From Acidimicrobiales bacterium (GTDB taxonomy: Bacteria; Actinomycetota; Acidimicrobiia; Acidimicrobiales; Aldehydirespiratoraceae): DNA of 64,000 nucleotides. How positions within the stretch are numbered: the first letter of the stretch is position 1; the number at the start of each line of letters is the position of its first letter. Below the pieces are notes generated by a model, which ran no database searches, was not told the DNA's origin, and was given only the letters and a program-made list of their open reading frames with translations. A program made the translations under genes and the position numbers. Positions 35,131 through 35,304 of this stretch are shown here, piece after piece. The DNA lies in the NCBI GenBank assembly GCA_029263175.1, contig JAJCXZ010000087.1, positions 1-64,000 of the forward strand, given 5' to 3'.

Positions 35131-35158
35131 TTGACTTTCCTGCCGATCGGGTTACCGT
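35131..35158 (+). promoter_or_regulatory. Candidate sigma-70-type promoter of the leuA leader
   Basis: TTGACT (35131-35136) and TACCGT (35153-35158) are spaced by 16 bases. Transcription from this pair would start near 35165, placing the leader-peptide start at or very near the 5' end of the RNA, so a leaderless leader peptide is possible. Confidence 0.45.
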
Positions 35159-35165
35159 GAAGACC

Positions 35166-35204
35166 GTGAAGCCCGATCTGTCGACCCTGCTTCTTCTCGT
35201 CTAG
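35166..35204 (+). CDS. leuL: leuA leader peptide (leucine attenuator)
   Basis: This is a 12-codon ORF, GTG-start, reading (V/M)[11 protein letters not shown], with four consecutive Leu codons (CTG CTT CTT CTC) and a fifth Leu earlier. An in-frame GTG at 35157 would add three residues. It ends directly before a 10-bp hairpin and lies about 100 bases upstream of leuA. A short, Leu-run ORF followed by mutually placed hairpins is the classical arrangement for leucine-sensing transcription attenuation and is known upstream of leuA in several actinobacteria. The call rests on composition and position. Confidence 0.8.
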
Positions 35205-35230
35205 GCGAGCGCCACATACCGGCGCTCGCC
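35204..35230 (+). promoter_or_regulatory. Leader hairpin directly after the leucine-rich ORF
   Basis: GGCGAGCGCC (35204-35213) pairs perfectly with GGCGCTCGCC (35221-35230) around a 7-base loop. The first base is the G of the leader stop codon. A ribosome stalled on the Leu codons or finishing at the stop would directly affect this stem, so it is likely part of the attenuator switch. Confidence 0.65.
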
Positions 35231-35270
35231 AACCCCTCGTGCCCTCGGGCCCGGGGGGTTTCTTGCTTTT
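35231..35270 (+). terminator. Attenuator terminator of leuA
   Basis: AACCCC at 35231-35236 pairs with GGGGTT at 35255-35260, with a smaller inner stem (GCCC/GGGC), and T-rich sequence TTCTTGCTTTT follows. This gives an intrinsic-terminator-like structure about 40 bases before the leuA start. It is weaker and more irregular than the hairpin preceding it. Confidence 0.55.
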
Positions 35271-35304
35271 CATACACCATCACCAACTACAGGAACCGAT
35301 CATC

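Follow-up and report, generated by a model that had tools for sequence, protein, structure and literature searches.

In the 64-kb window (by which we mean the whole stretch of DNA analyzed), leuA, the gene for 2-isopropylmalate synthase, is preceded by a short leader frame, two adjoining hairpins, and a T-rich tract (Table 1). A preliminary description of these letters had reported a 12-codon open reading frame with four consecutive leucine codons, followed by a 10-bp hairpin and a T-rich terminator ahead of leuA. All of these are present. The G of the leader stop codon is the first base of the 10-bp hairpin (hairpin 1), whose arms occupy positions 35204-35213 and 35221-35230. Folding of positions 35166-35304 gave -53.1 kcal/mol, compared to -37.8 ± 3.6 for shuffled sequences (z = -4.2). 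Farther upstream on the same strand (30686-35112) lie two large frames that by eye resemble GGDEF/EAL signalling proteins, the second of which stops 18 bases short of the -35 box.

Table 1. Features of the leuA leader region in the 64-kb window.
Feature	Position	Strand	Description
-35-like hexamer TTGACT	35131..35136	+	Sequence; TTGACT or TTGACA at the same place in several close relatives
-10-like hexamer TACCGT	35153..35158	+	Sequence; 7 nt upstream of the leader start codon
Leader peptide frame, 12 codons plus stop, probably leaderless	35166..35204	+	Predicted RNA start at or next to 35166; codons GTG AAG CCC GAT CTG TCG ACC CTG CTT CTT CTC GTC TAG
Sensor run, four Leu codons CTG CTT CTT CTC	35187..35198	+	One codon before the stop
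Hairpin 1, perfect 10 bp, loop ACATACC	35204..35230	+	Sequence, folding, covariation
Predicted intrinsic terminator hairpin	35231..35260	+	Adjoins hairpin 1 with a gap of zero; folding, covariation, gap statistics
U-rich terminator tail TCTTGCTTTT	35261..35270	+	Sequence; relatives
leuA, 2-isopropylmalate synthase	35305..37026	+	Start codon ATG 35305; NCBIfam NF002991 (E 2.8e-255) and TIGR00970, both above cut-off

We gathered sequences upstream of leuA from public contigs (80 loci kept) and from further genomes. A sequence was scored as fitting if at least three of the last six codons of a leader frame encoded Leu and these were followed by a stop and by a hairpin with a score of at least 7 bp; a T-run was recorded, not required. 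By this measure, 154 of 185 upstream sequences differing in their last 150 nt fit before duplicates were merged. Genomes present twice via two collections were dealt with by merging upstream sequences that share a 120-mer, leaving 161 groups; 130 of them fit, and inspection by eye added six more (136). Among the 25 groups without the element are records from proteobacteria, Actinomycetes whose leaders are of the LEU type, and a few members of the order. At five loci of order members that fail the scan (L183, L190, L192, L197, and L203), leuA has a different leader, with a peptide ending in LRLLxPAA-stop or similar.

Using one member per group, we could segment 124 of the 130 elements (six were dropped). 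Hairpin 1 begins at the third base of the stop codon in 90 of these leaders, and the stop is TAG in 100, TGA in 15, and TAA in 9. One leader subtype reads TAG-GGGCGAG. The gap between the two hairpins is 0 nt in 77, at most 3 nt in 114, and never more than 5 nt. Both hairpins covary: in a 40-sequence alignment, 93.2% of cells were paired and 74 cells carried double changes versus 20.6 in shuffled controls (0 of 500), a signal that was lost when the partners were slid. A hairpin of at least 8 bp abuts terminator-like candidates, some of which overlap one another, in 37 of 53 cases at leuA leaders versus 6 of 71 at other sites of the same sequences. Judged by comparison of sequences, the element is more than chance, being conserved in relatives with both its hairpins covarying.

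The geometry of the leader, measured in 111 of 119 distinct leaders (eight were dropped), is also conserved. The terminal Leu run has three to five codons in 108 of the 111, a figure that the selection criteria partly favour, and in 104 exactly one codon separates it from the stop. The distance from the first Leu codon to hairpin 1 is 13-18 nt in 106 leaders and 17 nt in 60, as it is in the window. CTT makes up 36% of the 394 run codons compared to 5.8% of the 1998 Leu codons counted in a sample of leuA genes, a sixfold enrichment. Since a ribosome covers ~12 nt past the start of its A-site codon, a stall at the first Leu codon would not disturb hairpin 1, whereas at the stop the ribosome would lie over the whole 5′ arm. 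The same ribosome/hairpin geometry is found in trpL.

The preliminary description had also placed the RNA start at the leader start codon and considered translation without a ribosome-binding site from either of two in-frame GTGs (35157 and 35166). GTG35157 overlaps the -10 hexamer and so would be unusable in that transcript, which removes the choice between starts. The promoter pair itself, TTGACT/TACCGT with a spacer of 16, is a weak match, and a strict sigma-70 scan found no promoter; the -10/start spacing is nevertheless conserved. Taking the best promoter-like pair for each of the 119 distinct leaders, we found the -10 box 5-9 nt upstream of an in-frame ATG or GTG in 90, with four leaders that lack such a pair scored as misses. 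When promoters and starts were exchanged between genomes, this number fell to 41.0 ± 4.1, with a maximum of 55 in 2000 permutations. This permutation served as the control, as an out-of-frame control offered only 4 and 1 open starts. The most frequent distances were 7 (37 leaders), 8 (24), and 6 (17) nt.

A second set of 38 leaders, upstream of short-type leuA, leuS, ilvB, and citramalate synthase genes together with two window-type leuA genes, had the 5-9 nt spacing in 19, versus 4.8 ± 1.9 (maximum 12) after permutation. This set omits the misfits L249 and L257 and retains the near-duplicates L230/L260 and L246/L248. The 29 of 119 leaders in which the spacing is absent count against leaderless translation. 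In 30 of 119, a 4-5 of 6 match to AGGAGG lies ahead of the start, so that for these leaders sequence alone leaves Shine-Dalgarno-led initiation possible. Taken together, comparison of the leaders provides good support for the idea that they are translated leaderless and that, in the window, RNA probably starts at or within ~2 nt of GTG35166, a 5′ end and a mode of translation that we infer from the conserved spacing. There are precedents: the portion of a mycobacterial study cited here reports that a 5′-terminal ATG or GTG is both required and enough for leaderless translation (PMC4633059), passages of a Streptomyces lividans paper describe the leaders before leuA, leuS, trpE, and ilvB as leaderless (PMC8079986), and the relevant section on Corynebacterium glutamicum places the ilvBNC leader start 1 nt from the RNA end (PMC11857589). 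Leaderless branched-chain leaders are already known, therefore, for Streptomyces leuA and ilvB and, very nearly so, for Corynebacterium ilvB.

We searched for further copies with covariance models. In the window's genome, where 150 of 4345 candidates were scored, the model found one site, the leuA leader, and missed the leader of ilvB. In 81 sources (642 kb), model R1 found 62 sites with E no higher than 8e-6, each immediately upstream of leuA; 19 of the sources with sites had supplied training sequences and 43 had not. The 63rd match was weak (L054, E 0.084). Across the phylum, 47 of 296 genomes match at E 0.01, which is a lower bound since stricter filters were used. Of the 56 phylum sites, 53 precede pathway genes: 28 leuA, 4 leuS, 20 ilvB, and 1 citramalate synthase. 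Nineteen of the leuA sites are before window-type genes, one of them (G064) assigned by position, and nine are before a leuA type ~25% identical. In one genome (G127), both leuA types are present and each is preceded by an element (L207 and L259). Of the three remaining sites, one lies upstream of an aminotransferase gene (L249), one does not fit (L257), and at one the contig ends (L260); the L260 leader peptide is identical to that at the leuS locus L230. L249 (G277:C78) is a partial match, covering model positions 19-79, with no fitting codon run, and may be due to chance; the aminotransferase downstream is related to BhcA and scores below the BhcA family cut-off.

The leader ends mostly follow the gene. 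Before leuA and leuS they read LLL or LLLL (exceptions are L228, LGL, and L233, QLL), before ilvB they are mixtures of Leu, Val, and Ile (L258 is unclear), and before citramalate synthase the end is IIII. The last of these (L253, G186:C18), an IIII-S-stop leader followed by a hairpin pair with a gap of 2 nt and by a gene above the TIGR00977 cut-off, is by its sequence a candidate isoleucine attenuator. Among 37 members of the distant set that we folded, the gap between the hairpins is at most 4 nt in 30 and 13 and 16 nt in two; the other five did not yield a clean pair. In the window's genome, ilvB (L264, G000:C37) has a leader ending in ALVVVGLT, a hairpin with a terminator directly against it, and a -10 box located 7 nt upstream of a GTG. 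No such leader was found in the ~500 nt scanned upstream of leuS in this genome. At six loci (L235, L237, L239, L250, L255, and L256), ilvB starts ~450-700 nt downstream of the element, and at L255 the stretch separating the leader from ilvB contains a further open frame (MTKTALLIVDMQ...).

We looked for an antiterminator helix that is mutually exclusive with the terminator. In a swap test, the duplex energy of each segment pair was compared with that of swapped partners in 96 representatives (nine of 154 leaders were not segmentable). Only the two hairpins beat swapped partners, with mean ranks of 0.13 and 0.07. For the remaining eleven combinations, in which arm 1, arm 2, the leader, or the Leu run was set against hairpin 1 or a terminator arm, mean ranks in these representatives were 0.48-0.63 and none covaried, in a test that cannot detect pairing when both partners are conserved in sequence. 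The leader and the terminator 3′ arm could pair at a mean of -12.1 kcal/mol, own and swapped alike. Pairing of GGYGC in arm 2 with GUGCC of the terminator, drawn by eye, was not supported by the swap test of arm 2 against the terminator arms. Pairing of the Leu run with AGGAGG of the terminator was likewise unsupported and would have the wrong sign for a biosynthetic gene. By eye, GCUCG of arm 2 can also be matched to CGGGC of the terminator loop.

Folding gave a similar picture. When RNA was masked from the 5′ side through positions +0 to +20 of the stop (148 leaders; six of 154 were dropped), the terminator core stayed the predicted fold in 146-148 of 148 under every mask. With arm 1 masked, arm 2 gave the terminator no base pair in 116 of 148 and 1-5 bp in the other 32. 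In unmasked folds of the 124 segmentable elements with 24, 36, and 45 nt of leader, 122, 124, and 124 elements, respectively, retained the terminator and 120, 121, and 118 retained hairpin 1, under a folding model that ignores kinetics and tertiary contacts. Thus, swap, masking, and full-leader folds detected no antiterminator helix that excludes the terminator, a result that leaves room for sequence-conserved or kinetic competitors. Since no such helix was detected, the standard attenuation switch cannot be assigned, and since the terminator folds under any mask, thermodynamics alone gives no switch. The preliminary description of the locus as a leucine attenuator is well supported by comparison, although the term conceals that no standard antiterminator helix was detected. 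In these predictions, the position of the ribosome alters hairpin 1 and not the pairing of the terminator, which is why we propose hairpin 1 as the switch.

The reading to which we give an even chance is that this is a ribosome-mediated leucine attenuator of leuA in which intact hairpin 1, abutting the terminator, hinders termination. Transcription would start at or within ~2 nt of GTG35166, and a ribosome would load on the 5′ end without a Shine-Dalgarno sequence. Waiting at the first Leu codon, it would halt just short of hairpin 1, so that when leucine is short hairpin 1 would stay folded, gapless against the terminator base. The folded hairpin would make it harder for the terminator stem to close inside the RNA exit channel, and leuA would be transcribed. 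When leucine is plentiful, a ribosome at the stop would open hairpin 1, the terminator would close, and transcription would end. Comparison of relatives supports the leader, the codon run, both hairpins, their abutment, the terminator, and the promoter-to-start spacing. These features suggest a response of leuA to leucine; that hairpin 1 itself may be the antiterminator is the most speculative part. We chose this sign, in which hairpin 1 opposes terminator closure, since it suits a biosynthetic gene given the geometry of the leader. The proposal has a precedent in the phage HK022 putRNA, which according to the passages cited indicates that folded RNA at the mouth of the exit channel can oppose hairpin formation (PMC9378689). 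Against it, a ribosome stalled on Leu codon three or four of the run would intrude partly into hairpin 1. A wider and more tentative version is that the elements across the phylum form one attenuator class that antiterminates without competing pairing, with a ribosome-controlled hairpin that mechanically blocks terminator closure.

The same attenuator could also work with the opposite sign, with hairpin 1 strengthening termination as one of tandem hairpins or through pausing. A starved ribosome on the last Leu codons would then keep hairpin 1 open and RNA polymerase would read through, while with leucine the ribosome would leave fast, hairpin 1 would form, and termination would ensue. Part of a study of Mycobacterium smegmatis reports that tandem hairpins downstream of gyrA strengthen termination (PMC8355165), the opposite of the effect that we propose, and the last two Leu codons of the window run start 11 and 8 nt ahead of hairpin 1, where a ribosome would invade it. 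However, a ribosome on the first Leu codon would leave hairpin 1 intact, and one at the stop would open it more than a Leu-stalled one does, blurring the leucine signal. We consider this arrangement rather unlikely, but a serious rival.

A little less probable, in our judgment, is classical attenuation with an antiterminator that we missed, either because it overlaps the terminator only briefly at their boundary or because its helix is weak and kinetic. The mutational model for C. glutamicum ilvBNC, in the section describing it, has an antiterminator and terminator sharing only three nucleotides (PMC11857589). The 32 members in which the terminator could gain pairs into arm 2 would fit such an overlap, as would the 5-bp GGYGC:GUGCC pairing, which can be drawn in the window and several relatives. 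However, the other 116 members show no invading pairs at all, and in the swap test arm 2 with the terminator 5′ arm had a mean rank of 0.54 in the 96 representatives, own partners being no better. The weakest reading, a real leader and terminator with constant partial termination or a protein acting on the hairpins in place of stalling control, agrees with our detecting no competing helix, with S. coelicolor leuA, where the passage cited reports that leader mutations behaved unlike classical attenuation (Craster 1999, cited in PMC1262725), and with the helicase proposal for the LEU element (PMC1262725), but we regard it as very improbable given that the codon runs mostly track the pathway and that CTT is enriched in them.

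A search of Rfam 15 found no family at the gathering threshold and only two irrelevant weak minus-strand matches. Our literature search, which covered few subscription papers, turned up the LEU element and leaders from Streptomyces, Corynebacterium, and mycobacteria, but no paper on leader-peptide attenuation in Acidimicrobi and none on coaxial terminator/antiterminator hairpins under leader-peptide control. Like the trp and leu attenuators of E. coli, the element has a short leader with cognate codons, a stop beside the regulatory hairpin, and a terminator before the gene; the window sequence contains both the cognate-codon leader frame and a predicted intrinsic terminator ahead of the structural gene. 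Unlike here, the classical E. coli attenuators form a helix with bases in common with the terminator, and their leader is preceded by a Shine-Dalgarno sequence.

Among the closest known systems is the LEU element upstream of actinobacterial leuA (Seliverstov et al., 2005; PMC1262725), which shares a Leu-run leader peptide directly before the gene. The LEU element folds into a pseudoknot, with a base stem formed between the Leu run and the leuA Shine-Dalgarno box, and the paper gives terminators for other operons but not for leuA (PMC1262725); the S. coelicolor leuA element also lacks the terminator found here. The window-type element consists instead of two simple hairpins, the second a conserved intrinsic terminator. 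When we compared the Leu run with the leuA start region, own pairs were no better than swapped ones (rank 0.56, n = 100), in a comparison where both parts may be sequence-conserved. S. lividans has leaderless, Leu-containing leaders before leuA (leuL1) and leuS (leuL2); in the passages cited, leuL2 is followed by a hairpin and a uridine stretch, while leuL1, unlike the window leader, has no typical terminator, and those passages do not mention abutting hairpins or the absence of an antiterminator (PMC8079986). C. glutamicum ilvBNC shares near-abutting antiterminator and terminator hairpins, branched-chain codons, and a leader start next to the RNA start, but as described in the section cited it has a 3-nt shared boundary and a proposed third, anti-antiterminator hairpin (PMC11857589), whereas most window-type members (116 of 148) gain no boundary pairs and the rest gain 1-5. 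HK022 putRNA shares two neighbouring hairpins and folded nascent RNA that opposes a terminator hairpin; the put RNAs, however, act persistently, through RNA polymerase and on distant terminators, and the part of that work cited mentions neither a leader peptide nor ribosome control (PMC9378689).

Set beside these systems, the element is possibly a new form of ribosome-mediated attenuation and may include a new switching step. With it, attenuation in branched-chain amino acid synthesis would reach Acidimicrobiales and other Actinomycetota that have been little studied and are represented here mostly by metagenome assemblies, and its simple DNA signature can be used for annotation. The ~130 distinct leaders form a natural set for asking whether attenuators can switch without the alternative helix of the classical systems.
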